Positions 24,025 through 60,979 of a stretch of DNA of 64,000 nucleotides are shown piece after piece (the stretch's first letter is position 1; each line of letters opens with the position of its first letter). This DNA comes from Hydractinia symbiolongicarpus. Taxonomy: Eukaryota; Cnidaria; Hydrozoa; Anthoathecata; Hydractiniidae. Position numbers and translations under genes: made by a program. The DNA is taken from positions 16,060,001 to 16,124,000 of the forward strand of contig NC_079883.1 of NCBI RefSeq assembly GCF_029227915.1, in the 5' to 3' direction. The notes below the pieces were generated by a model. The model was not told the origin of the DNA and did no database searches. It saw only the letters and a list, made by a program, of their open reading frames with translations.

Positions 24025-24168
24025 TGCATTCGCCTGAATAAGCTAGTCTGATATTTCCCTTCGACATGCATCGGGCAACGTTTAATGTACAAGGGTTTCC
24101 GTAAGTTTTTCCGTCGTTTCCACATTGCGGGAAGTATTCGCGGGTGCAAGCTTGGTTACAATCAGTAC
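24025..24168 (-). CDS. exon: Kazal domain (P1 Arg)
   Basis: 48 codons. CNQACTREYFPQCGNDGKTY gives the Kazal signature, with Arg at the reactive-site P1 position (second residue after Cys II), predicting trypsin-like targets. Donor GTAAGT. It is the most downstream module I can delimit. Confidence 0.85.
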
Positions 24169-24197
24169 CTAGAAAAGAAAGTGATTCGAAAAACATT

Positions 24198-24420
24198 GCT
24201 GCACGTAAAGCAGTGCCTGTCTGGATTATCCTCTATCTCGATTTCCATCTTGAACAAATTTCCGGTCTCTTGTGAGGTCGAAATAGGAGTCCACTTCACA
24301 TTAACAACAGAGATATTGCAGATTTTTACTCCTTTTCTATTGGCCTTCACGAACAATGCGAAATTGTCGTTGTCGTAAACGAAAAAGAATTTGCATAGGA
24401 AGGATTTCCGATAGATGTTA
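24198..24420 (-). other. unexplained open frame in an intron
   Basis: A minus-strand frame between two exons encodes YDNDNFALFVKANRKGVKIC and ISVVNVKWTPISTSQETGN without a stop for about 70 codons. It looks protein-like but has no clear splice borders and no family I recognise. It could be a skipped exon or transposon debris. Confidence 0.25.
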
Positions 24421-24661
24421 ATACAATATTTTTTCCTGTTCCTAAAACTCGTCTTTTTGAATACTTTATAACTTTATCTTCAATTTAAGCTAGGATTTGG
24501 GCTAAGTAAATAAACGCCTAATGCGGTTTAAAATCAAAATACACTAGATCGTGAATCCTTTATATTTAAAAACAAAAAAACATGTAAGATCAAAGACACT
24601 CATGGATTCGCTGGATTTTAACTCATTAAGGTTTACTGGTTTTTATATTATGTATGCTTAC

Positions 24662-24817
24662 CACAATTCTGTAATTTTCTTCCGCCGAGATAAAATTCTG
24701 CTTTGCATGTTTCACAGTAACTCGCTTGACATGTTGCACGAGGATATTTTGCACAGTATGCTGTTTCGCAGGGGTTGATTAAACATCTCACAATGTTTGA
24801 GCCATTTGGACATGTAT
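24662..24817 (-). CDS. exon: CGGC-type cysteine-rich domain, variant
   Basis: 52 codons: CPNGSNIVRC, NPC, then ASYCETCKAEFYLGGRKL. The usual YCGGC motif is YCETC here. Donor GTAAGC. Confidence 0.75.
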
Positions 24818-26564
24818 CTAGCAACGTAGAAAAAAAGATTTAAAGCAGGACTTTGTTTTTAGCAAATGGCGGAGCCGATAAAAAATGAAGCTTAAATAAA
24901 ATGCATTGAATTTGGTTTCTATACATATTTTTTGCATTTAATTCATTTGAATGAATGTTGTACTTTAAAGGTAGAAAACTTCGCGAAATAAATTTTTGAG
25001 ATTTCGATATTTTAAGGCAAAATCGCGAAAGTTTAGTTCCACGAAGAGATTGTAGCGTAGCATAAAGGACTGAAGGTTGTTAATTTTAGTATGTTAATTT
25101 TAAACCTAGTATTATCAACTGGGTTGCTTATAAAAAGTTATTCAGCCAACATATAAGAGATTAAAAACAAATTTTATACTTAGCTAGCCAACTGTCTAAG
25201 CTAGCTTTGGTTTGATAACTTTATTAAATATAAAACTAGCTAGATGCCACAATCTAAGACTTACACTTTTTTCCAAAGAGGTACTAGATCTATAAAATAT
25301 ACAAGCTAGCCAGCTGAATTGAACTAGGATATCTTATGTATCAGTATATCCCAACAAAACCAGGTCTATCTAATTACACGTTACCGCACTTTGTTGATAA
25401 TTAATGCTTCTTAAAAGATTTCATCACTATAAAATATAGTTCCAGGTGGACAAATAATAACTTGCTTTAAAATAAAAATTTCTAAAGTCAAGCGTTCAAA
25501 AACATCAACACCCAAAATACATCGTCTTCGCCATATGAAGGACGAGGACTCGATTAAGTTGCTTTGACTAGCCGCAGAAACTGTAACGGCAAGATAAATC
25601 ATTAATTATTCATAGACCAATACACTGGTTATGAAAAGCAGCCTGTAACAAGGCCTTGTTTAACCATCGAGTAAGCACTAACTGACGATTCTAACTGGAG
25701 CGTCGATGACTGAACGCATTCGATGTATTTGAAACTTGTTGAAATTTGTTAACTTGCTTTGTTCACCTCACTTGCATTCGTACATATTTTTTTGAAAACG
25801 TGTGTAAAATAGTACATAGTTCATTTTTTCATTGTGCACATAAAAAACTTCGCGATTGTTTCTACGAAATGATTCAATAAGGTCAATCCCCGCAATTTTT
25901 GAAGAATGGCGTGCAATAAACGGACCAAAAGTTCAAGATGCAAGAAATTATACACACTTTAGAACCATATAGACGGTTAGACAACCTGTTTATGAACAAT
26001 TAATTTCTATGATGAATTTGCTACTTTTTAATTTTTATTTTCTAAAAAAAGAAAAATTTTCCTTTAGTATTCTTTTTGGCGGTAAAATTAGTTACGGTCT
26101 GTGAAATGTATTAAATATCAGTAAATCTAAAGTTTGATTTGACAAGGGAACAGAGACAACACGAAGAGCTATATTTGTTAAAAAATGCTATGTTACTAGC
26201 TTTAAAAAGGTAATTAATACCTATAAAAAAGACTGGCTTCGTACAATAAACGTATATGTTTTTATGCAGAATTTCCAAGGATATAGCTTGCTAGCTAGTT
26301 CAATAAATTTAAAGTTTATTTTATTGGAAAGTTTGAATTAAAAGCAAGGTAAGTACTTATGTTTATTAAATCATGGATATCCAATATGTGTGTAGGGAGC
26401 TTTTCTGCCATTTTCAATTCTATTTGGATGCCCAATATGATATTTAAGATGATATAAGTGGTTGTTTTTGTCCTCACTGATCATAAACTTTTCTACCGCC
26501 ATTAGCTCGACTTTTGTATAAGTCACTAAAGTTGAAAACCAACGGCCGTTTTTGAGCCCCTTTA

Positions 26565-27340
26565 AGGTGGCAGTAGCCCTTTTGAAAATCGGAATTTTTT
26601 TTTTACATAATTAGTTACGAAAGGTTATTTTCAGACTATATATCCACATTTTTTCTGTTATAACACATTTGTCACGATTTTATGGCTAAAATACTATTAT
26701 CTTTCACCAAAAATATTCAGCCTAAACAATTCCTCTTTAAAATGAAATCATGAATAATTAATTATTCTGCTGAATATAGTTTAAGTCTACGTGCTTCCGA
26801 AATTGTACAGAAAGAAATGACGTAATTATTAAAGAGAAACGTTAATAACAACAAAGATGGCGCATTATGTAGAAATTTAAGACGATCTTCATTATGCTAC
26901 ACTGCACGAGCTTTAACTTTCGATAGCATTTTCGTTTTACTTTAAAATTTTCAGAAATACTTGGTGAATCAGGCAGCCATGATACGGTGTGCGGAAATCT
27001 TTTTATTCGGAATATTTTTCTTTTAACAGCGTTCGATGCAGCAGGGAATGCTAACAAAAAAAATCCGCACACCGTTTTAACAGGGGAGGTTCATTTAAAA
27101 ACAGAAGCTGATGAGAAATAATACATTGTAAGAAGTTGGAGCTCGTAGAAGCCGATTTTTTTCTTGTTTTTGATACATTTTTAAAAAGAAAATTCTGCTG
27201 ACTTAGCAATTTTAGAGTTAAGTTAAAATCATTTTATGTATTAAGGCCTATATTTTTAGGAAATAGTATATATGGTATAAATAAAACACTGAGTAAATAA
27301 TTCAGCTATTTGGACAGCTAAAAAAGGGTTACTGCCACCT
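26565..27340. mobile_element. 776-bp MITE with TA target duplication
   Basis: AGGTGGCAGTAGCCCTTTT at the left is mirrored by AAAAGGGTTACTGCCACCT at the right, one mismatch, flanked by TA on both sides. It sits in the intron between exons 24662 and 27678. No coding capacity. A diverged relative of its left end lies near 54190-54270. Confidence 0.8.
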
Positions 27341-27677: not shown

Positions 27678-27827
27678 GACATTTGCCAGTATAAGCTCGT
27701 CTAATGACACCATCACTTCTGCACATAGCACCTCTAAGTAGACAAAAATTAGAGTAGGTTTTACCATCGGTGCCGCACACTGGTCTGTAGTGGTATGGAC
27801 AAGATCGGTATCTCTTGCAACGGTCAC
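27678..27827 (-). CDS. exon: Kazal domain (P1 Tyr)
   Basis: 50 codons, RSCPYHYRPVCGTDGKTYSN. An extra residue before Cys II and Tyr at P1 distinguish it from its neighbours. Donor GTAAGT. Confidence 0.85.
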
Positions 27828-28150: not shown

Positions 28151-28297
28151 TGCAGGTTCCAAAGTGTTTCATGTAAACGTTTCCATTTGTGCGACATGTC
28201 TTTTGTTGCAGCAAGCAAACATTTCCGTAAGTTCTACCGTCATTACCGCATACTAGCGAGCGGCCTGTGTTACATTTCTTTGGACAAGATGGTTTTT
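28151..28297 (-). CDS. exon: Kazal domain with atypical reactive loop
   Basis: 49 codons, CPKKCNTGRSLVCGNDGRTY. P1 is Thr and the conserved Tyr after P1' is missing, so inhibitory activity is doubtful although the cysteines are complete. Confidence 0.85.
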
Positions 28298-28684: not shown

Positions 28685-28825
28685 CGCATGTTCCTTTGTA
28701 TTTTATTTGAACACTACCACCACTCTGGCACACACCAAAGTTCATCATGCATTCGTTACTATATGTTCGTCCATCAGTTCCACAATATGGATCGTATTGA
28801 CGTGTGCAGATGGGCGAGCACTTGC
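28685..28825 (-). CDS. exon: Kazal domain (P1 Arg)
   Basis: 47 codons, CSPICTRQYDPYCGTDGRTY. All six cysteines are present. The donor is GTATGT. Confidence 0.87.
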
Positions 28826-29125: not shown

Positions 29126-29272
29126 GGCATTTTCCTGGATGATTAAATTTCACTTTTCCATTTGAACTGCATGATTTTGATTGCAACTGGCATAGATTGC
29201 TATATGTGATACCATCACTACCACATTGCGGCTTGTACAATTTGATACATCCTACAGGACATCTTGGAGCAC
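29126..29272 (-). CDS. exon: Kazal domain (P1 Lys)
   Basis: 49 codons, CPVGCIKLYKPQCGSDGITY. Lys at P1 predicts trypsin-like targets. No long open frame marks it; it was found by reading the frame between AG at 29273 and GTAAGT below 29126. Confidence 0.85.
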
Positions 29273-29754: not shown

Positions 29755-29895
29755 CGCATCGTCCATCATACGCAAATCCAACTTGACCACTAGTTTCACA
29801 TATTTTTTTGTTTATCTCACATTGATTTGTGTACGTATTACCATCCGTTCCACATTTCGGTTTGTATTCTCTTGTACAATGCTTCTGACATTGTC
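29755..29895 (-). CDS. exon: Kazal domain (P1 Arg)
   Basis: 47 codons, CQKHCTREYKPKCGTDGNTY, the same reactive loop (CTREY) as the 24025 exon. Donor GTATTG is weak. Confidence 0.82.
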
Positions 29896-30298: not shown

Positions 30299-30445
30299 CA
30301 CATGCGCCATTATGCATTTTAAAGATGGCTTTTTCTGTTGTGCATGCTGTTAGTCTTAGGTGACATTCGCTTGAAAGTGTCTTTCTCAAACTGCTACAAA
30401 CAGGCTTATATTCATCTGTGCATGCCATTGAACATGATTCTGATT
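30299..30445 (-). CDS. exon: Kazal domain (P1 Asp, divergent)
   Basis: 49 codons, CSMACTDEYKPVCSSLRKTL. P1 is Asp and the usual DGKTY turn is replaced by LRKTL, so this module may be structural rather than inhibitory. Confidence 0.8.
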
Positions 30446-30767: not shown

Positions 30768-30917
30768 GGCAATCCACCTTTTGACCATCGACGGAGAAAA
30801 CTGCGTTACAGCCACCGCAGTAATTTGACTTGCATTTCGCTTTTGGATGGGCTGGACATGTCGACACGTCACAAGGGTTTGCGAAACATTTAAATGTACC
30901 TTCATCCTTCGGACAGT
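30768..30917 (-). CDS. exon: CGGC-type cysteine-rich domain
   Basis: 50 codons, CPKDEGTFKCFANPCDVSTC, then KSNYCGGCNAVF. Eight cysteines. The domain is common in cnidarian secreted proteins; I know no Pfam name for it. Confidence 0.82.
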
Positions 30918-31807: not shown

Positions 31808-31954
31808 CAGAGCACGATCCTCTTCTAGCAATTGTCAACAACGGTGTTTTGCATTTTTCGATGTCGAACAAACATTTATTTGATATCGTTCTGCCGTCTG
31901 AGGTGCATACAGGATCATATAAATACGTACATGCACGTAAGCAGTTGCTTTTTC
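31808..31954 (-). CDS. exon: Kazal domain (P1 Tyr)
   Basis: 49 codons, CLRACTYLYDPVCTSDGRTI. Tyr at P1 predicts chymotrypsin-like targets. Confidence 0.85.
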
Positions 31955-32745: not shown

Positions 32746-32967
32746 CTGAACAATCAACTGTTCCCTGACCAGGTCCTTTTTTAGTTCCAGCGATTTCTTT
32801 GCCAGTTTTTTCATTGACACACCAGCAATAACCAGTCGAACCATGGCATTGTTTTCTTTCGTAAGAGCCATCAGAACTGCATTGTGGAGTAAACCCTCCA
32901 ACCATGGGTCGACCTCCTCTGCTGTCTGCAGCATCTTTCTCAGCTTGACATTTCGTCATTGAATTAT
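32746..32967 (-). CDS. exon: thyroglobulin type-1 domain
   Basis: 74 codons with KCQAEKDAA, GGFTPQCSSDGSYERKQC and the diagnostic YCWCVNEKTGKEI. Six cysteines. Modules of this kind can bind papain-like cysteine proteases. It pairs with the adjacent exon at 33098. Confidence 0.9.
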
Positions 32968-33097: not shown

Positions 33098-33310
33098 CAG
33101 AACAGTCGACATACTGTCCACGTCTTTGTTTTGTTCCAGCAATCTCCTCGCCAGTTATCTCATTTACGCACCAACAATACCCCGTGGAGCCATGACACTG
33201 TCTCTTTTCGTAAGAACCATCGTTTTTACATTTTGGAACAAATGCTCCAACTAATGGTCCTCTGTTGCTTGCAGTATTTCTTTCTGCTTGACATTTTGAC
33301 TGAGAATTAG
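33098..33310 (-). CDS. exon: thyroglobulin type-1 domain
   Basis: 71 codons, KCQAERNTASNRG, FVPKCKNDGSYEKRQCHGS, YCWCVNEITGEEI. Very similar to the 32746 exon, so probably a tandem exon duplication. Confidence 0.9.
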
Positions 33311-34208: not shown

Positions 34209-34361
34209 CTTTGCATCGTCCATCGTAAGCAGCTTGCAATGATTTGGGTTCTTCTAAGCACTGAGCAACTTCAAGAGAACATTGGTTAGGATACGTCTTA
34301 CCGTCATTACCACATATCGGTGCATAGTTCAAAGGACAGGCTTGTGAGCACTTTCTTTTCG
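34209..34361 (-). CDS. exon: Kazal domain (P1 Leu)
   Basis: 51 codons, CSQACPLNYAPICGNDGKTY. Leu at P1 predicts elastase- or chymotrypsin-like targets. Found by reading the frame between AG and GTAAAC. Confidence 0.83.
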
Positions 34362-34568: not shown

Positions 34569-34718
34569 CACAAGTAATCTTTTTGTCTCCAACAAAGAAT
34601 TCAGCGCTACATCCTCCACAGAAATGTGGTTTGCAAACAGCTTTTGGTTCGTCTTCACAAAATAGTTGAGCACATGGTTGATACGAGCAAGCAACAATTG
34701 GTGTACCTTCAGGACATT
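34569..34718 (-). CDS. exon: CGGC-type cysteine-rich domain
   Basis: 50 codons, CPEGTPIVACSYQPCAQLFC, then PHFCGGCSAEFF. Confidence 0.83.
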
Positions 34719-35123: not shown

Positions 35124-35756
35124 TTTTTTCCACAGTTGGTTTTGATTCAGATTTCGTCAGGAACATGTCGAGATGGATATTATCACCAGCATGTTTAGGT
35201 GGAGAAAACTGATATGAATCATCGTGTTTAAAATCACCTTTACGAATCGGTTCTTTTCCATTAGTGCACCAACCGACATTTAACGTGGCTTCAATTATGT
35301 AATTTGTGTTTGTGGGATTTTTCAAACTCATAGTGTATGATATGTAAGGTGTATCGCCACTTGATAACGTTGGTTCTTTTATTGTCATAGAAGACTCTGA
35401 AGGTACGTCGCAATCTTTACTGTCACATAAAATTTCTTCGCGAATATCTAATTTCAAACATGATTCTGGTGGTAAATCACGCGGTGTGTTTAATGGCAAT
35501 ATTACCTTTCCTGATATCTTTAAGTCATTTGAGCTACAAGTCACAACACCTTCACCTCTATTCCTTCTAGTACCAATTATTTCAACTCCAGTTTTTCTAT
35601 TCACACACCAACACGATCCAATCGAGCCATGGCACTGTCGCTCTTTGTAACTTCCATCTGGATGACATTGTGGAACATAGGCACCCAATAACGGTCGACC
35701 ATCTCCTTTTTCATTTTCTGCCTTCACAGCTGTATGGCATTTTGATTTTAAAACAG
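35124..35756 (-). CDS. exon: thyroglobulin type-1 domain fused to SGK domain
   Basis: 211 codons without an intron. The first 70 form a thyroglobulin type-1 domain (CHTAVKAENEKGDG, CWCVNRKTGVE, VTC). The next ~130 form the beta-rich domain starting LKISGKVILP, with PPESCLKLDI, ATLNVGWC and a final hydrophobic strand. This second domain reminds me of YbaY/YscW-type beta domains, without proof. Confidence 0.87.
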
Positions 35757-35890: not shown

Positions 35891-36040
35891 CACAATCTCC
35901 TTCAGTTGCCATATAGAGAGACTTGGACTTATCTTTGCATTGAGCAACTTGGAAAACGCAGAGGTTGGAATATGTTTTGCCATCACTTCCACATACTGGA
36001 TCATAATTAAAAGGACAACCTTCTGCACACTTAGACTTAA
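35891..36040 (-). CDS. exon: Kazal domain (P1 Phe)
   Basis: 50 codons, CAEGCPFNYDPVCGSDGKTY. Phe at P1, nearly identical in the loop to the amplified modules at 55-61 kb. Confidence 0.87.
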
Positions 36041-36283: not shown

Positions 36284-36433
36284 CACATGTTATTTTCTTT
36301 CCATCTTTGTAGAATTCAGCTTTGCATCCTCCACAATAATTTGCTATGCAAACAGCTTTTGGTTCATCTTCACAGAACACCTGAGCACACGGATTAAAAG
36401 TGCAAGAAGTTAGTGGCGTGCCTTCCGGACATT
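36284..36433 (-). CDS. exon: CGGC-type cysteine-rich domain
   Basis: 50 codons, CPEGTPLTSCTFNPCAQVFC, then ANYCGGCKAEFY. Last module before the 14.5-kb intron (reading leftward, first after it). Confidence 0.84.
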
Positions 36434-38484
36434 CTATAAAAAAACAGGAGTTGCATAGCATTCGTATGTTACAACTATATGGAGTATTTATATTAACGTT
36501 GTAAAGATGGATCATTTACATAGTGATAAATTAAAAGAAAATGTTAGTACTAAATCATTTTTTTAAGAAAAACTTTGCTAACACATTAGCTTTAAAGGGG
36601 AAATAAGCCTAAATGCTTGTTGTCAAACAATGTTAGAAATGTGCAATAGAAATAGTTCTACCATTTAGGCCATGTTTTGGCGGGAAATAATCTTCAAATA
36701 AAATCTTTTTTATGAACAAGGCTTATTCTGAAACAATTATTAGGAAGAAAATTTCGTGTGTTTCGCGAAATTGAATTCTCGAAAAAAATGTGAATTTTCT
36801 AAATTCGGAAAATTGAATTCTTGCAAAGAATTTGAATTTCCCAAAGAGAATAAATTTGCGCGAAAAAAACATTTTTTTGGTTCGTGCAACTAAGTTCCTG
36901 CGATAATTTCTTCCCTTAAGGTTAACAAATACTTGCTGTGAAAAACTAAGCTACGTTTTCTTTGGCAACTTAATTCTGGTAAGCAGTAATAGATGTATAA
37001 CAACAGAATAGTTTATTTTGTATCTCACGATGCACAAAGATTATATCAGAGTTTATATTTAAAGTATGCAAAGAAGCTGAAAAGATATAGGTAAAAATGA
37101 CACAGTAAAACCTAAAACAGCGAACCTTTCAGTTCAGTTTTACCACTAAGTCAAACAGGTGTTTGTAAAAATCACCTGTAACCACAAATATTGCCTAAAC
37201 ATTGCGAGCGTTTAATTCTAACAGATTAAAAAATACTAGCCATGTTTGTTCAGGCAATTTCTATGAGCTATATGAGTAACGAAACATAATAACCAATTCT
37301 GGTTTGAAAACAACTTTTTCTTTTCTTTTTATGGTTTTGTCTTAAGTTATTTTTCGCGAAGACGTTTTTTCGCGAGGCACAAAAAAAAATACATTTTGTG
37401 AAATATAATTTTCGCGAATCAGTCAGTATTTCACGAATAAATCATTTTAAGGTTTTTTGCGAAAAATTATTTTCACGAACCTAGTATTCTATCGCAATTG
37501 TAATTTATCTCAGGCCTATTTATTGAGATAAGGTAGCCATTGTTTTTATAAACTACAAAGAAAAACTACCACCCGAATGCGTGAGTTTTCGAGTTTTGTT
37601 TTGTTTTTATTTGTCTCGCAACCGTTAGAAACCACGTGTTAAAAAAAGCATCATGATTCGCTCAAATTCCTACTTTCGAACGGGACGGCATTCAAATACA
37701 GAGTTCTCTTGGTGTAAAAACAAACAAACAAAAAAATTGTTTTTAAAGTTCTCGACAAAAAGCAAACTAACAAAAAAACAACAAAAACGCATTAAATCGT
37801 GAGAGAATATAAAGAACAACAAAGAATACAGTTTATAAAAAGTGTGAAGGCGGGATTTACAGGTAAAGTTTTAAATACTCCCTCCTTTTTCACTGTAATA
37901 AATAGGCTAGCTAATACATCTTTGTTTTCAAATATAATAATGTTGACGGCATTTTTTAAAATGCAGAGAACAATTGGAGGTACTAGCTTACTGAACATAT
38001 TCTTAAAATAAATGTTCACAAAATCATATTTTAACAAATATAGCTAGCTAACTACAACTACAGCACATCGGCTAGCTTTCAAGTTAACTATGATTTTTTA
38101 CTTTTACTACGTTAAGAAACATCCTATTCAGGCGAAAATGTAGGTGCGCATAAATCAAAGTGAAATAAAAAGAGAAGGGAAATGTTTCTTATATTTTCCG
38201 TTCTGATTTGTTTATAACAACAAAGCTAGCATTATTGCTTACAAATTTTGCATCAATTAATGATCTCCAGGTGCGTAACTAATCTGCGTGTTTAATTATT
38301 TAAAATGCTGCACAAAGATGTGGTGAGCACATAGATTGTTGTTTTACAGTGTTGTATAAAAAGTTTAGTTAAAAGCTAAGGATTTAAGTCATAGTTAGTT
38401 AGTTAGTTAAGAAAAAAAAAGGAAAGAAGTAGCCATTGTTGTAGATAAAGACAGCAAAATATCAGTTTATCTACATTTTTAGCA

Positions 38485-38540
38485 GTGTGACCATTGGGTT
38501 AGCGCCCCACTGCTCTGCCAACTGAGCTATTGGACCAATA
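38485..38540 (-). repeat. tRNA-like fragment
   Basis: On the minus strand TAGCTCAGTTGGCAGAGCA is a canonical tRNA D arm (box A), followed by a TGGG/CCCA anticodon-like stem. No T arm with GGTTCRANNCC follows, so this is a tRNA-derived repeat piece and not a functional tRNA gene. Confidence 0.5.
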
Positions 38541-38949
38541 GTGAGACGAGTTTGCAATTGCCTTTTCTCTCACTACAGAATCGAGCCCAGCTGGTGGTTC
38601 AAGCCGCGTGTTTCGGTAACATTACCTTCATCAGCCCATATATATTTATTTTTTTCTGGGTACAGTATACATATTATAGAACATCTGGTAGTTCACTTTT
38701 GAACTTTTTTTATTGCTGTAGTTTGACCTTATTTTACTTATATCATCTGCATATTGCATTTAATGTGTTGTATTGATGTGATTTGTGAGTAGTTGTGTTC
38801 TGTTTGGTGATCGGCGATTGTATTTGTAATGTTTTGACTATTTTCATATGTATGGTCTTGTATTGGTGGTGTATAATTATTGTTGTCTGATTCGAGCGAT
38901 TTTGCTAGATAAAAGGTAATTTCATTTGCACTAGCACAATCACCTTGTG

Positions 38950-39960
38950 GTGCACCAGTATCGGTTAAAAAATATTCGCTTATGTATTAACCACATTTTG
39001 CTGCTAATTTCACATTTAAGAGAATCTGAACTAGATGTAATTCGTCTTTATTGATAATGGTGTTAAGGTCGTTTATTAACATTTGACGGTTTATGCTGTC
39101 AAATGTGTATGCAGTTTGGTTGATTGGAATTTTGCCGTCTAGTCTTGATCCAATGCGTTTCATTAAACACATGGCTAGAATTTTTCTAAGAATAGATAGT
39201 GGTATGATTGGTCTCAAGTTGGAAGGCAGTCCCTTTGGTTTTTCCGGTTTTCGTAGTGCTCGGATTAAACCATGGTCTATTTCGTTTGAGTGTTCGCCTG
39301 TCTCTGCAATGTTATTAAAGATATTTGCTATGTTTTCGTATATTATGTCTGGTGAGTTTTTGATTAGTTCTCCATTGATGTTATCTTTGTCAGGGCTTTT
39401 GTTATTCTTGATTAGTTTCGCAGTTGATTTTATTTCCTCTTTTGAAAATTTATTTGTAATTGAGTTGGTGTTATTGGTTTTCTTACTGTTGTTTCATTTT
39501 TGTTGAATATTTCTTTAAAGTATTTTACAATGATTTATGTTTGTTTGTTCTTCTTCGTTAGGTGTTAGACCGTCGTTATTTTTTAGAAGTACACGTTGCT
39601 TTGGTGTCATTGTGTTTAGATGTTTGACAGCTTCATACATTTTTTTTGTTGTCATGATTTGCGTTTAGGTCTTTCAATAGATCCTTGATGGTGTTTTTTT
39701 CTTTGTTTGATAAAAATGTATGGAATTCAGTAAGGATTCGATTTCGTTTTTTTTCATTTCTTGTCGTTTTACTGGATCTTTTGTGGCGTTTATGTTGATA
39801 TTTATTTGTTTTTGTTGAATTGATAGGATCTGTATTTCTTCATCTTTGTGTTTTAATTGATGCTTTTTATATTCTATGATATTTTCTGCTGCTGATTTAA
39901 GGGTTTTGGTAATACACCTATACCGAATCTTATTGCGTAATCTTTCGCGCAACATGAAAA
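38950..39960 (-). pseudogene. LINE reverse-transcriptase fragment
   Basis: Reading leftward from 39960, a charged helical region precedes RPIIPLSILRKILAMCLMKRI and INQTAYTFDSINRQMLINDL, the fingers/palm blocks of non-LTR reverse transcriptases. QTAY is joined directly to FDSINR, though about 45 residues normally separate them, and the YxDD motif is not present. It is 5'- and 3'-truncated. Confidence 0.75.
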
Positions 39961-40217
39961 CGAGGCAGCGTGTTGTAAAATTTAAACAAACATGCCGCGA
40001 GTGTAGAAAATTTGCTGTATACCTTCTGTTGGAAATTTTGCCACCAGAATTAAAAACAAAAACTTATTCATTCACTTTCCCATATTTTCTTTATAACTTG
40101 AATAAGTTATTTAAGATCACTTTTTCAACGTGTGCCACTGTTAGTAAGAAGAGCTAGTCGTGAAAAAAAGTTTAAAAAATGGCAGAACAATATTCCAATA
40201 CACCTCTTCACAGTTTA

Positions 40218-44210: not shown

Positions 44211-44216
44211 TTTTAG

Positions 44217-44260
44217 CATATTTTAGCCTTTTATATCTCAATATAAAAGGCTAAAATATG
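44217..44260. other. 19-bp perfect hairpin, copy 1
   Basis: 44217-44235 is exactly complementary to 44242-44260 around a 6-nt loop. Repeated at 48007-48050. Confidence 0.75.
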
Positions 44261-44565: not shown

Positions 44566-44716
<151 letters not shown>

Positions 44717-45338: not shown

Positions 45339-46819
45339 TTGAAACAATGGTTTACTGAAACTGTGAACTCGTGTATTCGACGAAACTTTGACCAAACAAA
45401 AATTTATCTGGTGGGTATGGAAAATACTGTTGTGTTCCCGGGTGCAAGAGTGCAACAAAAGATTCGTCAATGTAAAACACTGGTATATCGTTATTTCAAA
45501 TACCTCAGAAGGAACCTTAAAAAACCCATTGGATCAAAGCTTTACAAAATCATCAAAGAAAAAGCAGCATCGATTCTTTTGATCCTCGGAAGAAGACGGT
45601 TTATGTGTGCCAGTTTCACTTCAAACAAACAAGAAAATCTCCAAGAAAAAGAGAACCCCTCTCTGTCGTGAAATATTCGTCCGAAAGTGTCATGGAATCA
45701 GACTCAGACGAAGGTCATCAGGACACGAACTTAGAAAATGAGCCACAGGGTGATTTGTCGCAAACGGAGAGTCTTGAACTAGAGAATAAGGAACTGAAAG
45801 AAAAGCTTCATCTGTTACAAAGTAAAGTAAATAATCTTGAACAAGAAAGTGTGTCTCTGAAAAATAAATAATACAACTTTGACAGTGTTAGTAAAAACGA
45901 AATATACTTTCGAAAAGCAACTGGCATATCAGTGGAAAAGTTCAACATATTGTTTGAATTTTTAGATCCAGGTGTTGGATGTAGTAACATAAAAATGCAT
46001 GATACAGCTAAAAATTACACGAAGAAACTTTCACAACAGATCAAGACACCACCAAACTGAAGTCCGAACCACCTCCAAAACTGGATGCGAAAGGTCAACT
46101 TTTTCTTTATTTACCCTGGTTGAGGAATGAATTTAAACTGGCCCATACTTCTTGGTTATTCTCCATCCCAATTACTACAGTTTCACGTTATATAAAAAAC
46201 ATGGTCAAATGTTTGCTATTTTTCATTGGATTCAGTCCCAACTTGGCCAATAAGAGAGCAAGTGAATGCTAATATGCCTGAGTGTTTTAAAAAAATTTAT
46301 CCAACCACCAGATGACTGTACTAATTATACTGCCAAAGACCATCTTCTTTATCAACTCAAAGTGCGCTTTATTCACACTATAAATCACATGTAACTTACA
46401 AGGGACTAGATGGAATTACATTTATTAGTCAGTTATTTGATGGTTCGATATCAGATAAGGCTATTGTGAGACAGTCAGGATTTTTACAAAAATGTTTTTG
46501 GGAATCTGGCGATAGTGTCATGGCTGATAGAGGTTTCTGTATTGAAGATGACCTGCAGCAGTTCAACGTTAACCTAAATATTCCAGCTTTTCCTGATGGC
46601 AGAGAACAACTGACAGCTGGTGAAGCCAAGAAAAGTCAGAGTATTGCCTCTGTTCGAATTCATGTAGAAAGGGCAATACAAAGGATAAAAAGATTTAAGA
46701 TTAATAGAAATGAAATTCGACTAACACTTCATGGGTCTGTAAACCAAATATGCACAGTTTGCTGTCTGATAAAGTCACTGAACTTTGTGCCACTCAATCC
46801 CATTCCCATTTGCACTTGA
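45339..46819 (+). pseudogene. ISL2EU/IS4EU-like THAP-DDE transposase, copy 2
   Basis: Identical to the copy at 41549, with the same stops and frameshifts, so the gene was already dead before the duplication. Confidence 0.75.
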
Positions 46820-47680
46820 GCGTAATAGCCATTTGGATGATCACGTTTTAAATAAAGTCCGCCATCCATACGTCCAACATAGAATGCTGAGTCACCTAAA
46901 AGGTCATCTGCTAAGCTGTTTCTCTTGCGATAAGGGCATTTAATTTCCACCAGCCCCAAACTATTATCACCATTGGATTGGTCACTAATTAGACCATCAG
47001 GACTAGCTACTAACCATGGTAAATTGGGTTGGATTACACATCCTGTCTCTCTCACGTTTACATTACGATTTAATTGAAACTGAAGCGCAAAGCATCAAGT
47101 ACATGTTGAGATGTATTTTTTTTCTGATCTGGCATAAAATCTGGCACTAGATTGTTAAAGTTTTTTTTTCCTGATGTAAATTTTATAGGCATTGTTGGAA
47201 GTAATTTTTCGTTTTTTACTATATATCCACAATTTCGACTGTTCTAGTGTCCCTTTCGAATTCTCTACATGACTCTTCCGTAACAGTGATAGAGCGAATA
47301 TAACTTTCTTCTTCTTCACTTGCATCCCAATGCACTGGCACAATACAACTATCACAACCAATTATTTCAAAAGGTAAAGAATTATAATCTTCTTCAGAAT
47401 ACAGTGGCAATTCTATCTTTTCTATATCGGTCACAATGTCGAAATCAAACAGGATTTAAATGATACGATAATGGTGATCTACAGTCAAACAAACCATATG
47501 GTGTGTTTGTCTTCACAGCTGTAAAGTCAGGGATACAAGAAGCAAAAGCGATATTTTTGTTTATTTTTTCGAGAGATGTCTGAAATTTGATGGTACGTTG
47601 TTCAAAGACTTCTTCAGGTTCAATTCTTCTAGGGCTATATAAGGTTGTTGAGATCCCTTTCTTGTTCACATTCTTTTGAA
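46729..47680 (-). pseudogene. YqaJ-like nuclease gene, copy 2
   Basis: Identical to the copy at 42939-43890, including the break in the middle and the antisense overlap with the transposase. Confidence 0.72.
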
Positions 47681-47689
47681 CAGTTATCC

Positions 47690-48000
47690 AAGTTTATTTG
47701 ATGTAATATTCTGGAATTTATTCCATTTAATTTTAACAGTTGGGATGACTGGTTTATGATCTGATTTCGTTATAGAGGTGTTGTATGATCTTGAGTCGAA
47801 CGTTGTTGTATTTTTGCAGTTTTTTATAAGTTTGTAATTGATTTGATTTCTGTATGGATTTTTGCGATTATTTTGAGCGGTTACAGGTGATTCCTATGTG
47901 TTGCGATGACTTGGTTTGTGTTTGAAACATGTGTTAGTGATTTTCAGGTTATTTAGTTTACAGAATTCAAGTAGTATTTATCCATTCTTGTTTATCGGAC
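47690..48000 (-). pseudogene. LINE endonuclease fragment, copy 2
   Basis: Duplicate of 43900-44210. Confidence 0.65.
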
Positions 48001-48006
48001 TTTTAG

Positions 48007-48050
48007 CATATTTTAGCCTTTTATATCTCAATATAAAAGGCTAAAATATG
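48007..48050. other. 19-bp perfect hairpin, copy 2
   Basis: Duplicate of 44217-44260. Confidence 0.75.
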
Positions 48051-48355
48051 AATTTCAGCAGGTTGTGTTTTTATGTTTTTAAAACTAGCTAGTTTCTATA
48101 ATAATACAGAGAATATGTGTGTCTGTGACAGGCAAAGTGGATGTGTACATTTCGCTTTGATGTAGCCGAAGAAAATTATGTCTGTAATGTTAAATTTTCT
48201 GACGTTGAGGCGCGACGTCAATATTACTACTTTACCGTCAATATCTGATAATAAATTAATGAAGCCATTACAGTGCACATAAAACTTTGAGGCCAAATAA
48301 CTTGAAAACGAGGTGGTGACGTCAGTTATTTTTCACCGCGTGGGTAACTAGGGAC

Positions 48356-49915
<1,560 letters not shown>

Positions 49916-49920
49916 AATGC

Positions 49921-50259
49921 GTGGATATCCTAACAAATAAGAAAGTAACGATCAAAATGAAAATAAAAACATTCGATACCTACGTCACGCCAACATTCCT
50001 CTACAATGCAGAAATATGGACACTCAATAAGAAAAAAGAGCTTGAGATTGATGTATTTCAACGCAAACTTGTACGAACGAATGTGTTGAATGTAAAATGG
50101 CCGGAAACAATTACAAACGATAAACGAAAAACAGGAATGGAACAGTGGAGTCAAGTAATTAAAAACAGAAGAATGAGATGGTTAGGACATGTTATAAGGC
50201 TACCGGATAACACACCTGTCAAAATAGCCCTTGACTATGCTGAAGAACAAACAGTATGA
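49921..50259 (+). pseudogene. LINE reverse-transcriptase C-terminal fragment
   Basis: KIKTFDTYVTPTFLYNAEIW, ELEIDVFQRKLVRTNVLNVKW and RRMRWLGHVIRLPDNTP are the typical C-terminal blocks of non-LTR reverse transcriptases. It begins directly after the ATC array. Confidence 0.8.
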
Positions 50260-50639
50260 AAGACCACGTGAAAGACCTATTTCGACATGGCTTTTTATGA
50301 CTGGGACCAATTTGGGTGAATTTCCCACAGCTGGGTCCCCGAATCCGTTTCGGAATAGACAGGTTGAGGACGTCATTAAAAACCTTTAAGCTCGAATATC
50401 TCTGCAACCGTTTGTCAAAAATACATGATCCTATACATTTTCATGATCAGCGTTTGAAGATCTATACGATGAAGGCAACAGATATACAAATTTCCAAAAA
50501 AAATGTTTTGGTTTTGGTTTTTTAAACATTTATATCTCATTAACCACTCACACATGAAAATATACATTTTCTTGATCAGCAGTTTAAGCTCTACACAATA
50601 GAGGCAACGTGAAACCAAGGTTCTAACTTTTTTTGTGGA

Positions 50640-50700
50640 TGGGTTGCTGCCGCCATCAAAATTCAAATGACGCTTTTTTTTCCACGGGCTTTTCGACTAG
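50640..50700 (+). mobile_element. Helitron-like 3' end (degenerate hairpin)
   Basis: CCACGGGCTTTTCGACTAG followed by T at 50701 closely matches the end at 2080 (CCACGGGCCACCGACTAG), but the left arm of the hairpin is not intact. Confidence 0.45.
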
Positions 50701-50952
50701 TATATAATAATATTATAATGTACATTATGCACTTGTGAAACAAAGGCTGGAAATTCAGCGGCTCGTCAGCTAAAATGCAAGTATAAACAATGTTTCCTAC
50801 ATAACAAATAGGATAACGACTTTGGTTACATGCAACAAAGGATTTCACGAAAACCTAGCACCCCTATTTTATATCGAAACTAAGCAGCATGTTTACTAAA
50901 TAAACAAAGAAATATTCATGTTGGAAATAATAAGCTAGAAATAAAATTTTAC

Positions 50953-51195
50953 CAGATGAACTGACGTTAGCTACAGCGGGGCATTCCACTTTTCCTTGTC
51001 CAGGTCCTTTTTTTGTTCCAGTAATTTCTTTGCCAGTTTGTTCATCAACACACCAGCAATAACCAGTCGAACCATGACATTGTTTCTTTTTGTAAGAGCC
51101 GTCCACTTTGCATTGTGGAACGTAAGCCCCAAGAAGTGACTTTCCATTTCCACGTTTGTTTTCAGCTTCCACTTTCAACTGACAATCTGTTTTAG
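50953..51195 (-). CDS. exon: thyroglobulin type-1 domain
   Basis: 81 codons with CQLKVEAENKRGNG, YVPQCKVDGSYKKKQCHGS and YCWCVDEQTGKEI, plus a short Ser/Val tail. First module upstream of the large intron. Confidence 0.9.
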
Positions 51196-51316: not shown

Positions 51317-51937
51317 TGGGAGGTTGTGGTTTTGTTCCATACTTTGTCAAGATGATGTCAAGGTCAACAGAATCTCTATCCTTTGGAAGTGTAAATTCAT
51401 GAGAAATATTATTTGTGTAATCACCATTTTTAATCCATTCTCTGCCAGTGTTACACCAACCAACATTCAATGTTGCTCCAACAGTATATCCTGGAGCAGT
51501 AGGTTTGTTTAAATACATTTTGTATGATATGTATGGCTTCTCACCCTTTTCAATAGTAGGCCGATCTATTTTAAGAGATGATACGACAGGAACTTTGCAA
51601 TGAATTGACTGACATACAATTAACTCCTGAATCTTAACATTCAAGCATGAATCTGGTGGTAAGATACTGGGAACGTTTGCAGGAAGAGTTACTTTCCCTG
51701 AAACGATTAGTTCCACGATGGGGCAGGTCACTCCCCCTTCGCCTCTTTTCTTTCTGGTTCCTGGTATTTCTGTTCCCTTTATTTTATCAACACACCAACA
51801 TGACCCAATTGAACCATGGCACTGTCTATTTTTGTATGTTCCATCGTCATTGCATTGTGGAACATAGGCACCAGGTGAGGCTTGCCCATCGGCTTTTGCA
51901 TTTTCAGCTTCGACGACCTGACGGCATTTGGCTGTTC
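51317..51937 (-). CDS. exon: thyroglobulin type-1 domain fused to SGK domain
   Basis: 207 codons, built like the 35124 exon: CRQVVEAENAKADG, CWCVDKIKGTEI, VTC, then IVSGKVTLP, PPDSCLNVKI, ATLNVGWC. Donor GTACGT. Confidence 0.88.
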
Positions 51938-52284: not shown

Positions 52285-52434
52285 CACATAACCCTTCTTT
52301 TGCCATGTAAAGTAAATTTGTTTCGTCTTTGCATTGCGCTACTTCAAAAGCACATAGGTTTGAATATGTTTTTCCATCACTTCCACACACTGGATCAAAG
52401 TTGAAAGGGCATTGCTCAGAACACTTTGTTTTCC
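52285..52434 (-). CDS. exon: Kazal domain (P1 Phe)
   Basis: 50 codons, CSEQCPFNFDPVCGSDGKTY. Confidence 0.87.
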
Positions 52435-53101: not shown

Positions 53102-53251
53102 CACATGTAATTTTCTTCCCATCTTTGTAGAATTCAGCTTTACATCTTCCACAAAAGTTGGGTTTACAAACAGCTGTCGGTTCATCGTTACAACTAAGGT
53201 GGGCGCACGGACTAAACGTACAGCCAGTGATTGGAACACCTCTTGGACATT
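53102..53251 (-). CDS. exon: CGGC-type cysteine-rich domain, variant
   Basis: 50 codons, CPRGVPITGC, AHLSC, then PNFCGRCKAEFY; the second Gly of CGGC is Arg. Confidence 0.8.
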
Positions 53252-54478: not shown

Positions 54479-54619
54479 CTTCACATTTTCCAGCATGTAC
54501 CAATTTAAGCGATGAGTCTTCGCAAGATCGTCTAGCTTCCAAAACACATTTATTGGAATATGTTTTACCATCTGATCCACAATGGGGAGAATAGATAGCT
54601 GGGCATGCAATCAAACACT
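54479..54619 (-). CDS. exon: Kazal domain (P1 Ala), possibly terminal
   Basis: 47 codons to a class-1 border, CLIACPAIYSPHCGSDGKTY. The only donor that keeps phase is a weak GTTGGC. Without splicing the frame runs EGWQC and stops at TAA 54465, and AATAAA lies about 110 bases downstream. This may be the end of one gene. Confidence 0.8.
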
Positions 54620-54728
54620 CTAGGTCCGAAAAAATAACAAGAGTGTACAAATGGAAAATGCAAATGAGAAACAAACTTGCGAAACTTATTTAAACATTGA
54701 GCACATAATTAATCAATTTTTAACAAAC

Positions 54729-55136
54729 CTTTTTTTGGTTGCGGCTTAATTTCATATTTCGTTAATTTAACATCTAAGTCAACATTATTTCCACTTTCTG
54801 GTTTCGTAAATGTATGCGAAACATCGTTGTTGTAATCACCGTTTCGAATCCATTCGCTGCCAGTCTTGCACCAACCAACGTTAAGAGTAGCTTCAATCAC
54901 ATACGTAGGTGCAGTGGCATCTTTCAAATTCATTGTGTATGGTATATATACTTGATCGCCTCTTTCCATTTTAGGTCTTAAAATTTTCAAGTTTGCCAAA
55001 AGAGGTACAGTGCAATCCTCGCTGTCACATAAAATTTCTTCACGAATGTTTATATTCAAGCATGAATCAGGTGGTAAAACAGATGGTGTGTTGGACGGCA
55101 AGACAATTTTTCCACTGATGATTAGGTCATTCGGTC
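54729..55136 (-). CDS. exon: SGK domain, unit 1
   Basis: 136 codons. IISGKIVLPSNTPS, PPDSCLNINI, ATLNVGWC. Identical to the other amplified copies until the last ~20 codons (LTKYEIKPQPKKG instead of MREYVSKPQPKKG), where the amplified block begins. Donor GTTTGT. Confidence 0.87.
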
Positions 55137-55459
55137 CTAACGAAACGTATATAATATTTAATTTATTAGAATGTTTGTCGAAGATACCAAGGGCATTAAG
55201 ATAGAAATATTGCTCACGAATGCCCTCTCCTATTTTTTAAGCAGTTCCTAGAATTCCTAAGTCCAAATTTTGAAATTAGAAAAAATATATTCAAAAAACA
55301 CTTTTTTGTAAATCTTGAAAATATATTTTGAGACACTAAAAAATCACTGAAATAAATATATTGTGTGACGTATTTCTCATTAACGATGTAAAGCAAAGAA
55401 GCATAAAACAAAACAAACACAAACACAAAATCAAGGATATAAAGACAAAATAAGGTTAC

Positions 55460-55627
55460 CTGATAGTGCAGACTTTTCATCACATGCCCCATTGTGTTTT
55501 AAATAAACAGTTCCACTGTTTTTACATTGTGCAACCTCAAGAGTACAGAGATTGGAATATGTTTTATCATCACTTCCACATACTGGATCATAATTGAAAG
55601 GACATCCTTCTGAACATTGTGTTTTAT
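55460..55627 (-). CDS. exon: Kazal domain (P1 Phe), unit 1
   Basis: 56 codons, CSEGCPFNYDPVCGSDDKTY with an extra tail EKSALS. DGKTY is altered to DDKTY in all three units. Confidence 0.86.
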
Positions 55628-56064
55628 CTAAAAAGAAAGAAATGGTAAAAATTTAGTAGAAGACATTGATTATTTTTAAAATTCAATTTGATGAAGTGAA
55701 AATGATGTAGTATGTTCCTATTTGTTAAAAAAATTTGAAAATAATTGGAAAGCAAAAAAACAAAAACACTTGAAATGAAACTGGAAATTTTGTAAACGTT
55801 GTAATAATCCATGGTGATGAAACAGCCTGCATGGATATGAAATAGGATTACGTGCCCATTTCTTGCCCATATTAGACAAATCACTAAAAACTTATTTCCA
55901 GGCAATAGAGTAAAGTTTCTTATAGAACGGAATCCGATTGAAAACACGTAGTTTAAATCTAAGAACGTATAGCTATGGTAAAACATGCCGGATTTGTTAT
56001 AACGAAATGTTTAAAAAAATATTACAATTGACTAGAGTAAATATGCTTAAAGTCAAAGTCTTAC

Positions 56065-56214
56065 CACATTTAATTCTCTTTCCATCTTTGTAGAATTCCG
56101 CTTTACATCCTCCGCAGAAGTTTGCTTTACAAACAGCTTTTAGCTCGTCTTCACAAAACAACTGTGCACATGGATCAAAAGTGCAAGTGGTAATTGGAAC
56201 ATCCTTGGGACACT
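56065..56214 (-). CDS. exon: CGGC-type cysteine-rich domain, unit 1
   Basis: 50 codons, CPKDVPITTCTFDPCAQLFC, then ANFCGGCKAEFY. Confidence 0.83.
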
Positions 56215-56553
56215 CTAAAATCCGTAAAAATTCATTAAAAACATCTTTTTAACTAAACAGTGTCATAACAACCTTGGTATTCATCTGACCTGTAGAAAGG
56301 TTCACTTGCGCAGACTAACAATGGAAAAGATATTTAACTTATTCACACGCGAACTTTGCGTAATAAATTAGCTGGTTCGCCGTGTAGCAAATGAGACGTA
56401 ATAACATCCATTTTTCGCGTGACACACGTATTGATATAATAGTTGTCCGAAGATATCGATGAAAAACGTAAAATTTCCAATAGTAAGAAATAAACAATAT
56501 CTTGACGTCTTTAGACCATATTAGACAGCACAAACTTTTGTTAATCCTTTTAC

Positions 56554-56961
56554 CTTTTTTAGGTTGAGGTTTGCTCACATATTCTCTCATTTTAACATCT
56601 AAGTCAACATTATTTCCACTTTCTGGTTTCGTAAATGTATGCGAAACATCGTTGTTGTAATCACCGTTTCGAATCCATTCGCTGCCAGTCTTGCACCAAC
56701 CAACGTTAAGAGTAGCTTCAATCACATACGTAGGTGCAGTGGCATCTTTCAAATTCATTGTGTATGGTATATATACTTGATCGCCTCTTTCCATTTTAGG
56801 TCTTAAAATTTTCAAGTTTGCCAAAAGAGGTACAGTGCAATCCTCGCTGTCACATAAAATTTCTTCACGAATGTTTATATTCAAGCATGAATCAGGTGGT
56901 AAAACAGATGGTGTGTTGGACGGCAAGACAATTTTTCCACTGATGATTAGGTCATTCGGTC
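56554..56961 (-). CDS. exon: SGK domain, unit 2
   Basis: 136 codons ending MREYVSKPQPKKG, donor GTAAAA. Confidence 0.87.
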
Positions 56962-57284
56962 CTAACGAAACGTATATAATATTTAATTTATTAGAATGTT
57001 TGTCGAAGATACCAAGGGCATTAAGATAGAAATATTGCTCACGAATGCCCTCTCCTATTTTTTAAGCAGTTCCTAGAATTCCTAAGTCCAAATTTTGAAA
57101 TTAGAAAAAATATATTCAAAAAACACTTTTTTGTAAATCTTGAAAATATATTTTGAGACACTAAAAAATCACTGAAATAAATATATTGTGTGACGTATTT
57201 CTCATTAACGATGTAAAGCAAAGAAGCATAAAACAAAACAAACACAAACACAAAATCAAGGATATAAAGACAAAATAAGGTTAC

Positions 57285-57452
57285 CTGATAGTGCAGACTT
57301 TTCATCACATGCCCCATTGTGTTTTAAATAAACAGTTCCACTGTTTTTACATTGTGCAACCTCAAGAGTACAGAGATTGGAATATGTTTTATCATCACTT
57401 CCACATACTGGATCATAATTGAAAGGACATCCTTCTGAACATTGTGTTTTAT
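57285..57452 (-). CDS. exon: Kazal domain (P1 Phe), unit 2
   Basis: Same sequence as the 55460 exon as far as read. Confidence 0.86.
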
Positions 57453-57889
57453 CTAAAAAGAAAGAAATGGTAAAAATTTAGTAGAAGACATTGATTATTT
57501 TTAAAATTCAATTTGATGAAGTGAAAATGATGTAGTATGTTCCTATTTGTTAAAAAAATTTGAAAATAATTGGAAAGCAAAAAAACAAAAACACTTGAAA
57601 TGAAACTGGAAATTTTGTAAACGTTGTAATAATCCATGGTGATGAAACAGCCTGCATGGATATGAAATAGGATTACGTGCCCATTTCTTGCCCATATTAG
57701 ACAAATCACTAAAAACTTATTTCCAGGCAATAGAGTAAAGTTTCTTATAGAACGGAATCCGATTGAAAACACGTAGTTTAAATCTAAGAACGTATAGCTA
57801 TGGTAAAACATGCCGGATTTGTTATAACGAAATGTTTAAAAAAATATTACAATTGACTAGAGTAAATATGCTTAAAGCCAAAGTCTTAC

Positions 57890-58039
57890 CACATTTAATT
57901 CTCTTTCCATCTTTGTAGAATTCCGCTTTACATCCTCCGCAGAAGTTTGCTTTACAAACAGCTTTTAGCTCGTCTTCACAAAACAACTGTGCACATGGAT
58001 CAAAAGTGCAAGTGGTAATTGGAACATCCTTGGGACACT
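57890..58039 (-). CDS. exon: CGGC-type cysteine-rich domain, unit 2
   Basis: Same as the 56065 exon. Confidence 0.83.
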
Positions 58040-58378
58040 CTAAAATCCGTAAAAATTCATTAAAAACATCTTTTTAACTAAACAGTGTCATAACAACCTT
58101 GGTATTCATCTGACCTGTAGAAAGGTTCACTTGCGCAGACTAACAATGGAAAAGATATTTAACTTATTCACACGCGAACTTTGCGTAATAAATTAGCTGG
58201 TTCGCCGTGTAGCAAATGAGACGTAATAACATCCATTTTTCGCGTGACACACGTATTGATATAATAGTTGTCCGAAGATATCGATGAAAAACGTAAAATT
58301 TCCAATAGTAAGAAATAAACAATATCTTGACGTCTTTAGACCATATTAGACAGCACAAACTTTTGTTAATCCTTTTAC

Positions 58379-58786
58379 CTTTTTTAGGTTGAGGTTTGCT
58401 CACATATTCTCTCATTTTAACATCTAAGTCAACATTATTTCCACTTTCTGGTTTCGTAAATGTATGCGAAACATCGTTGTTGTAATCACCGTTTCGAATC
58501 CATTCGCTGCCAGTCTTGCACCAACCAACGTTAAGAGTAGCTTCAATCACATACGTAGGTGCAGTGGCATCTTTCAAATTCATTGTGTATGGTATATATA
58601 CTTGATCGCCTCTTTCCATTTTAGGTCTTAAAATTTTCAAGTTTGCCAAAAGAGGTACAGTGCAATCCTCGCTGTCACATAAAATTTCTTCACGAATGTT
58701 TATATTCAAGCATGAATCAGGTGGTAAAACAGATGGTGTGTTGGACGGCAAGACAATTTTTCCACTGATGATTAGGTCATTCGGTC
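58379..58786 (-). CDS. exon: SGK domain, unit 3
   Basis: Same as the 56554 exon. Confidence 0.87.
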
Positions 58787-59109
58787 CTAACGAAACGTAT
58801 ATAATATTTAATTTATTAGAATGTTTGTCGAAGATACCAAGGGCATTAAGATAGAAATATTGCTCACGAATGCCCTCTCCTATTTTTTAAGCAGTTCCTA
58901 GAATTCCTAAGTCCAAATTTTGAAATTAGAAAAAATATATTCAAAAAACACTTTTTTGTAAATCTTGAAAATATATTTTGAGACACTAAAAAATCACTGA
59001 AATAAATATATTGTGTGACGTATTTCTCATTAACGATGTAAAGCAAAGAAGCATAAAACAAAACAAACACAAACACAAAATCAAGGATATAAAGACAAAA
59101 TAAGGTTAC

Positions 59110-59277
59110 CTGATAGTGCAGACTTTTCATCACATGCCCCATTGTGTTTTAAATAAACAGTTCCACTGTTTTTACATTGTGCAACCTCAAGAGTACAGAG
59201 ATTGGAATATGTTTTATCATCACTTCCACATACTGGATCATAATTGAAAGGACATCCTTCTGAACATTGTGTTTTAT
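59110..59277 (-). CDS. exon: Kazal domain (P1 Phe), unit 3
   Basis: Same as the 55460 exon. Confidence 0.86.
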
Positions 59278-59714
59278 CTAAAAAGAAAGAAATGGTAAAA
59301 ATTTAGTAGAAGACATTGATTATTTTTAAAATTCAATTTGATGAAGTGAAAATGATGTAGTATGTTCCTATTTGTTAAAAAAATTTGAAAATAATTGGAA
59401 AGCAAAAAAACAAAAACACTTGAAATGAAACTGGAAATTTTGTAAACGTTGTAATAATCCATGGTGATGAAACAGCCTGCATGGATATGAAATAGGATTA
59501 CGTGCCCATTTCTTGCCCATATTAGACAAATCACTAAAAACTTATTTCCAGGCAATAGAGTAAAGTTTCTTATAGAACGGAATCCGATTGAAAACACGTA
59601 GTTTAAATCTAAGAACGTATAGCTATGGTAAAACATGCCGGATTTGTTATAACGAAATGTTTAAAAAAATATTACAATTGACTAGAGTAAATATGCTTAA
59701 AGCCAAAGTCTTAC

Positions 59715-59864
59715 CACATTTAATTCTCTTTCCATCTTTGTAGAATTCCGCTTTACATCCTCCGCAGAAGTTTGCTTTACAAACAGCTTTTAGCTCGTCT
59801 TCACAAAACAACTGTGCACATGGATCAAAAGTGCAAGTGGTAATTGGAACATCCTTGGGACACT
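59715..59864 (-). CDS. exon: CGGC-type cysteine-rich domain, unit 3
   Basis: Same as the 56065 exon. Confidence 0.83.
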
Positions 59865-60203
59865 CTAAAATCCGTAAAAATTCATTAAAAACATCTTTTT
59901 AACTAAACAGTGTCATAACAACCTTGGTATTCATCTGACCTGTAGAAAGGTTCACTTGCGCAGACTAACAATGGAAAAGATATTTAACTTATTCACACGC
60001 GAACTTTGCGTAATAAATTAGCTGGTTCGCCGTGTAGCAAATGAGACGTAATAACATCCATTTTTCGCGTGACACACGTATTGATATAATAGTTGTCCGA
60101 AGATATCGATGAAAAACGTAAAATTTCCAATAGTAAGAAATAAACAATATCTTGACGTCTTTAGACCATATTAGACAGCACAAACTTTTGTTAATCCTTT
60201 TAC

Positions 60204-60611
60204 CTTTTTTAGGTTGAGGTTTGCTCACATATTCTCTCATTTTAACATCTAAGTCAACATTATTTCCACTTTCTGGTTTCGTAAATGTATGCGAAACATC
60301 GTTGTTGTAATCACCGTTTCGAATCCATTCGCTGCCAGTCTTGCACCAACCAACGTTAAGAGTAGCTTCAATCACATACGTAGGTGCAGTGGCATCTTTC
60401 AAATTCATTGTGTATGGTATATATACTTGATCGCCTCTTTCCATTTTAGGTCTTAAAATTTTCAAGTTTGCCAAAAGAGGTACAGTGCAATCCTCGCTGT
60501 CACATAAAATTTCTTCACGAATGTTTATATTCAAGCATGAATCAGGTGGTAAAACAGATGGTGTGTTGGACGACAAGACAATTTTTCCACTGATAATTAA
60601 GTCATTGGGTC
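60204..60611 (-). CDS. exon: SGK domain, upstream copy
   Basis: Same as the repeated SGK exon except LSSNTPS for LPSNTPS and a few silent changes near 60572-60600, which mark the right edge of the amplified block. Confidence 0.87.
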
Positions 60612-60829
60612 CTAAATTCAGACACAGGCACATCTAAGTTTTAGGCTTTTCACGGTTGTTTTATCAATTGGACATTCATTTAATGTAGCCTGCAGATACC
60701 CATGTTAAATAATTAAAACGAGTTGGTGAAAACAAAATTTGATAGACAGCTACATGGCTGGCTAAGAATGACGGGATTAAGTTCTGGCCTTCTTATGTAA
60801 TTAACGTAACTAAAGTATCAGTCTCTCAC

Positions 60830-60979
60830 CTGGGCAATCACTTTTATTCTTTATATAGATTGATTGAGGATCTTTGCATTGTGCCGTTTTCAAAATACAG
60901 AGATTGGAATATGTCTTGCCATCACTTCCACACACTGGATCATAATTAAAAGGACAACCTTCTAAACACTTTGTTTTGG
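60830..60979 (-). CDS. exon: Kazal domain (P1 Phe)
   Basis: 50 codons, CLEGCPFNYDPVCGSDGKTY. The most upstream module in the window; its 5' border AG requires a further exon to the right. Confidence 0.85.

Follow-up and report, generated by a model that had tools for sequence, protein, structure and literature searches.

Domain exons of the minus strand

We analysed a 64,000-nucleotide stretch of Hydractinia symbiolongicarpus DNA (the window; assembly GCF_029227915.1, contig NC_079883.1, positions 16,060,001 to 16,124,000), in which an array of exons encodes Kazal, thyroglobulin-1 (Tg1), SGK and CGGC modules. A search of the window for open frames and modules placed 33 domain exons on the minus strand, running from 60979 down to 24025. 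These range from 141 to 633 bp, every length is divisible by three, and the joined exons give 7,182 bp, or 2,393 residues, in a frame without a stop. With K for Kazal, S for SGK, C for CGGC and T for Tg1, the module order is K S C K S C K S C K S K C K TS T for exons 1-16 and, from exon 17, C K TS C K T T K C K K K K K K C K. CGGC-Kazal-(Tg1)-SGK cassettes recur along the array, and in two of the 33 exons (15 and 19) Tg1 and SGK are fused. The totals are 16 Kazal, 5 Tg1, 6 SGK and 8 CGGC, or 35 modules, numbers that hinge on the assembly because some cassette copies are nearly identical. The locus is an intact-looking mosaic, set apart by its SGK module and by the readability of the mechanism that amplified it.

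An earlier note on this DNA had described a giant inhibitor-like gene built from class 1-1 exons, and its strand, span and module counts were reproduced here. Its figure of 35 exons is instead the number of modules, as two exons carry Tg1 and SGK together. Its smallest exon, of 18 bp, found no support in the window, where the smallest supported exon has 141 bp; tiny exons may still exist. Given that our exon model was picked using phase-1 sites, we evaluated all AG and GT sites near the domain edges in a frame-blind control, using generic consensus weights that were not fitted. The top-scoring acceptor lay in phase 1 for 33/33 exons and the top-scoring donor for 32/33 (one third would be expected by chance), and acceptor and donor together matched the exon model in 32/33. 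Exons 3/6/9, 4/7/10 and 5/8 are copies of one another, so that the independent cases number at most 28. The misfit is exon 20, where a different phase-1 acceptor and a phase-0 donor outscore the modelled sites; an alternative phase-1 acceptor upstream of it, at 34763, would lengthen the exon by 45 bp. Model and control together bear out the claim that exon lengths are multiples of three with phase 1 on both sides. The arithmetic behind the further claim, that skipping or duplicating any exon preserves the frame, also holds, and duplication is visible in the SGK cassettes, while skipping is without evidence here.

The array thus fits the description of a class 1-1 mosaic gene, its exons matching modules in size and having phase 1 at either border. 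Metazoan exon shuffling is described as mostly 1-1, with modular secreted and membrane proteins arising chiefly from 1-1 exons (PMC7259759). The phase pattern is therefore real but ordinary, since secreted mosaic proteins of animals are usually composed of 1-1 exons throughout.

Cassette amplification by exon-internal crossing-over

Three tandem units of 1,825 bp, each with an SGK, a CGGC and a Kazal exon, occupy 54727-60201 on the minus strand. The two higher-coordinate units are identical (0/1,825 differences), and the lowest-coordinate unit shows 13 differences from them, of which 12 lie within 54736-54765 and one at 56053. The CGGC exons of this region are exons 3 (59715-59864), 6 (57890-58039) and 9 (56065-56214), and its Kazal exons are exon 4 (59110-59277) and its copies, exons 7 (57285-57452) and 10 (55460-55627).

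The SGK exons record how the units arose. Exons 2 (60204-60611) and 11 (54729-55136) are the parents of the array, with a unique 5' and a unique 3' flank, respectively, and exon 8 (56554-56961) is a hybrid of the two. Its upstream flank is that of exon 11 (200/200 bases) and its downstream flank that of exon 2 (200/200), whereas the flanks of exons 2 and 11 are not common to both (58/200 and 62/200). Within the exon, exon 2 departs from exon 8 at only four positions, all up to offset 38, and exon 11 departs from it only from offset 371 on; exon 5 (58379-58786) is identical to exon 8 across 528 bases. Given the flanks of the hybrid exon 8 and the exon-internal breakpoints, the array bears the signature of growth by unequal crossing-over between two SGK exons, with breakpoints within the exon. 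The near-perfect identity of the units points to a very recent origin, to homogenisation or to an artefact of assembly.

The modules and their relatives

Kazal domains (PF00050/PF07648) scored above the curated Pfam cut-off in both window open reading frames submitted (exon 1, 60830-60979; exon 12, 54479-54619). The remaining Kazal exons were recognised solely via an in-house profile built from the Pfam-confirmed ones of the window. All 14 distinct Kazal modules have six cysteines, with slightly variable spacing in exons 12 and 31, the first loop being longer in exon 31. We predicted their P1 residues from the usual P1 rule. Phe, Leu or Tyr is predicted in 9/16, namely Phe in exons 1, 4, 7, 10, 14 (52285-52434) and 18 (35891-36040), Leu in exon 21 (34209-34361), and Tyr in exons 24 (31808-31954) and 31 (27678-27827), so that six of the nine fall in exons 1-18. 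The four modules with predicted Arg or Lys all lie in exons 27-33, with Arg in exons 27 (29755-29895), 29 (28685-28825) and 33 (24025-24168) and Lys in exon 28 (29126-29272). The other three have predicted Ala (exon 12), Asp (exon 26, 30299-30445) and Thr (exon 30, 28151-28297). Phe, Leu or Tyr at P1 is typical of chymotrypsin- or subtilisin-type inhibitors, and Arg or Lys of trypsin-type ones. If active, the 5' half would thus target mostly proteases of the chymotrypsin or subtilisin type, and the 3' region would in part act on trypsin-like ones.

Tg1 domains (PF00086) passed the curated Pfam cut-off in 3/3 window open reading frames submitted, and those of exons 22 (33098-33310) and 23 (32746-32967) were recognised solely via an in-house profile built from the Pfam-confirmed frames. 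Exon 16 (50953-51195) is likewise a Tg1 exon, and exons 15 (51317-51937) and 19 (35124-35756; at 633 bp the longest) carry Tg1 with SGK. Frames from other assemblies resemble both fused exons: P0001 is 97% identical to exon 15, and P0002 resembles exon 19 by eye.

The predicted structure of SGK, obtained with the exon 11 copy, has a YbaY/pilotin fold. Consistent with this, the SGK profile aligned with bacterial YbaY at E 1.4e-6 in a single comparison (90% probability over 73 columns, spanning positions 5-83 of the model), whereas the CGGC profile, used as a control, gave E 0.58. Among 24 aligned SGK members, window copies included, five match PF09619 at E <=1 (best 3.1e-7), and two proteins, P0039 and P0124, clear the cut-off of this family when scanned whole. 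SGK is thus predicted to be a YbaY/pilotin-fold domain distantly related to the PF09619 family, sharing its predicted fold and sequence profile with the bacterial YbaY/YscW/AspS pilotins. What sets animal SGK apart from them are its invariant cysteines (C24 and C88 in model numbering), its signature N-x-G-W-C...D and its place as an internal module rather than a lipoprotein. No N-terminal lipoprotein signal was seen by eye on the SGK exons. As these exons are internal and have no signal of their own, we do not claim that SGK works as a pilotin does. P0124 itself, of 956 residues, has five SGK/YbaY-like domains and carries no Kazal, Tg1 or CGGC module.

CGGC is an eight-cysteine module that is present in several animal groups and recurs beside inhibitor domains. 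Outside the tandem units it is encoded by exons 13 (53102-53251), 17 (36284-36433, the copy used for structure prediction), 20 (34569-34718), 25 (30768-30917) and 32 (24662-24817, divergent). NvCI, a snail metallocarboxypeptidase inhibitor (4a94), has six cysteines as opposed to these eight. It is described as acting via a free C-terminal tail (PMC6780499). In the exon model CGGC lacks such a tail directly after its last cysteine, since 8/8 CGGC exons precede further exons. In the green alga Edaphochlamys debaryana, one protein (P0101) has Kazal domains and five CGGC domains, so this pairing is not limited to animals.

Relatives were sought among candidates of at most about 2,147 residues. A query with a Tg1-SGK exon returned two proteins; a search scored on SGK alone also returned two and overlooked known relatives. 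Another search returned 469 proteins and listed the best 120. Nine of the relatives bear SGK. One of these, P0016 from the cnidarian Rhopilema esculentum (source label agrin-like, 971 residues), shares with the window array the modules SGK (two copies), Kazal (three) and Tg1 (four), but it also has two kringles, and CGGC was not found in it. Closer to the repeated cassette of the window are P0091 (480 residues) and P0104 (423 residues), with the order Kazal-CGGC-CGGC-Tg1-SGK and one cassette only. All four modules occur in one open frame of P0123 (source 'lgn', 1,699 residues; SGK x8, CGGC x3, Tg1 x1, Kazal x4), whose order and numbers differ from those of the window and which opens with a VWC domain that narrowly clears the cut-off. 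The frame sits on a 6,169-bp contig that is probably a spliced transcript, given that such modules occupy separate exons in the window. The earlier note knew this combination from no characterised protein and proposed a proteome search for SGK, CGGC and Kazal together. The search found P0123, P0091 and P0104, none of them characterised. Accordingly, we encountered no characterised carrier, but the combination is not unique, its modules being shared by these three proteins and by P0016.

Gene boundaries and function

Together these data support a model where the locus is probably the middle of one gene, or of two neighbours, encoding a secreted multi-headed protease-inhibitor or matrix protein of an animal. 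The inhibitor-like character and the class 1-1 exons claimed earlier are thus supported at the level of the sequence. Several points weigh against this reading. No signal peptide, stop codon or RNA was found for the gene, neither of whose ends was located in the window; the 5' end probably lies beyond it. A gap of 14.5 kb could divide two genes, the near-identity of the cassettes may come from the assembly, Kazal and Tg1 domains are sometimes non-inhibitory in matrix proteins, and Pfam YscW (PF09619) matched 0/3 window SGK copies.

It is possible, although we would not favour it, that exons 1-16 and 17-33 belong to two or more tandem paralogous genes split in the gap (36434-50952), which at 14,519 bp far exceeds the upper-middle value of 347 bp for the 32 introns. 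The C-K-TS cassette occurs on either side of the gap, in exons 13-15 and again in exons 17-19, which tandem gene duplication would be expected to produce. The SGK relatives are also shorter than 2,393 residues, which says little given the length limit of the searches. However, transposons are able to inflate an intron, and the gap holds two identical stretches of an element (41534-44550 and 45324-48340; 0/3,017 differences), with a CAT array behind each. In the first copy the plus strand carries a DDE_Tnp_4 transposase domain and the minus strand a YqaJ-like domain, and 48356-49915 consists of 520 perfect CAT repeats (1,560 bp, zero mismatches). Scanning the minus strand between 24 and 64 kb for signal-peptide exons gave two candidates, both within domain exons (23 and 33), and none in the gap; a stricter setting gave none in this range. 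This test is weak, as 8/33 modelled donors fall below its cut-off. P0123, moreover, carries 16 such modules in one frame. Since inhibitors could also be the products of two tandem genes, this arrangement is compatible with the inhibitor reading, and the odds of the rivals overlap.

A little more doubtful is a matrix or growth-factor-binding mosaic that uses Kazal, Tg1 and VWC domains as agrin, follistatin, SPARC or CRIM1 do, with protease inhibition secondary or absent. Kazal-like and Tg1 domains act as non-inhibitory parts there, P0123 opens with its VWC domain, and some of the module-sharing proteins among the best 120 of 469 bear the source labels agrin-like, CRIM1 or nidogen. Against this, the predicted P1 residue is Phe, Leu, Tyr, Arg or Lys in 13/16 Kazal modules, as is usual for inhibition under the P1 rule. 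We consider it very unlikely that the locus is an assembly product or in decay, with artefactual cassette and transposon duplications and no working gene, since the identity of units 2 and 3 and of the transposon pair and the perfect (CAT)520 array after that pair are set against 2,393 codons without a stop, hybrid exon boundaries that agree with biological unequal crossing-over, and exon 15- and exon 19-like frames in other assemblies.

Outside the array, long plus-strand open reading frames at 5997-10361 include a Pox_A32-like ATPase domain (9738-10361, E 2.2e-7), which suggests a Maverick/Polinton-like element; 5997-8030 looked polymerase-like by eye and had no Pfam match.

For the multi-headed inhibitor, the most likely role would be against digestive, matrix or microbial proteases. 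Tg1 and Kazal inhibitors like the window modules are found in cnidarians, among them equistatin, a sea-anemone Tg1 inhibitor, other thyropins, and Hydra kazal2; presumably these differ from the window array in having few domains and no SGK or CGGC. In one account of Hydra, gland cells provide kazal2-type inhibitors with bactericidal activity (PMC5090036), and in one of Nematostella, adults have more protease inhibitors upregulated than primary polyps do, including proteins with Kazal, Kunitz or thyroglobulin repeats (PMC12549020).

We hypothesise the following mechanism. The protein, whose start was not located, would be exported; its Kazal loops, judging by the predicted P1 residues, would block serine proteases, its Tg1 domains may block cysteine cathepsins, and SGK and CGGC might serve as spacers, binders or additional inhibitors. 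A bolder and rather improbable scenario is that a bacterial-type YbaY/pilotin domain entered animals and gained cysteines to become the shuffled 1-1 SGK module, and that CGGC is an NvCI-like metallocarboxypeptidase inhibitor, so that one chain would act against serine, cysteine and metallo-proteases with its valency set via exon-internal crossing-over. Because the phase-1 borders let exons be gained or lost in frame, the valency and specificity of a multi-headed inhibitor could change quickly. SGK, an unannotated module, gains a predicted fold and a distant family. The locus illustrates how secreted animal proteins can be put together through exon swapping and duplication, and offers a concrete case of cassette duplication via exon-internal crossing-over, with breakpoints legible in the hybrid copy and phase-1 introns that permit module gain.

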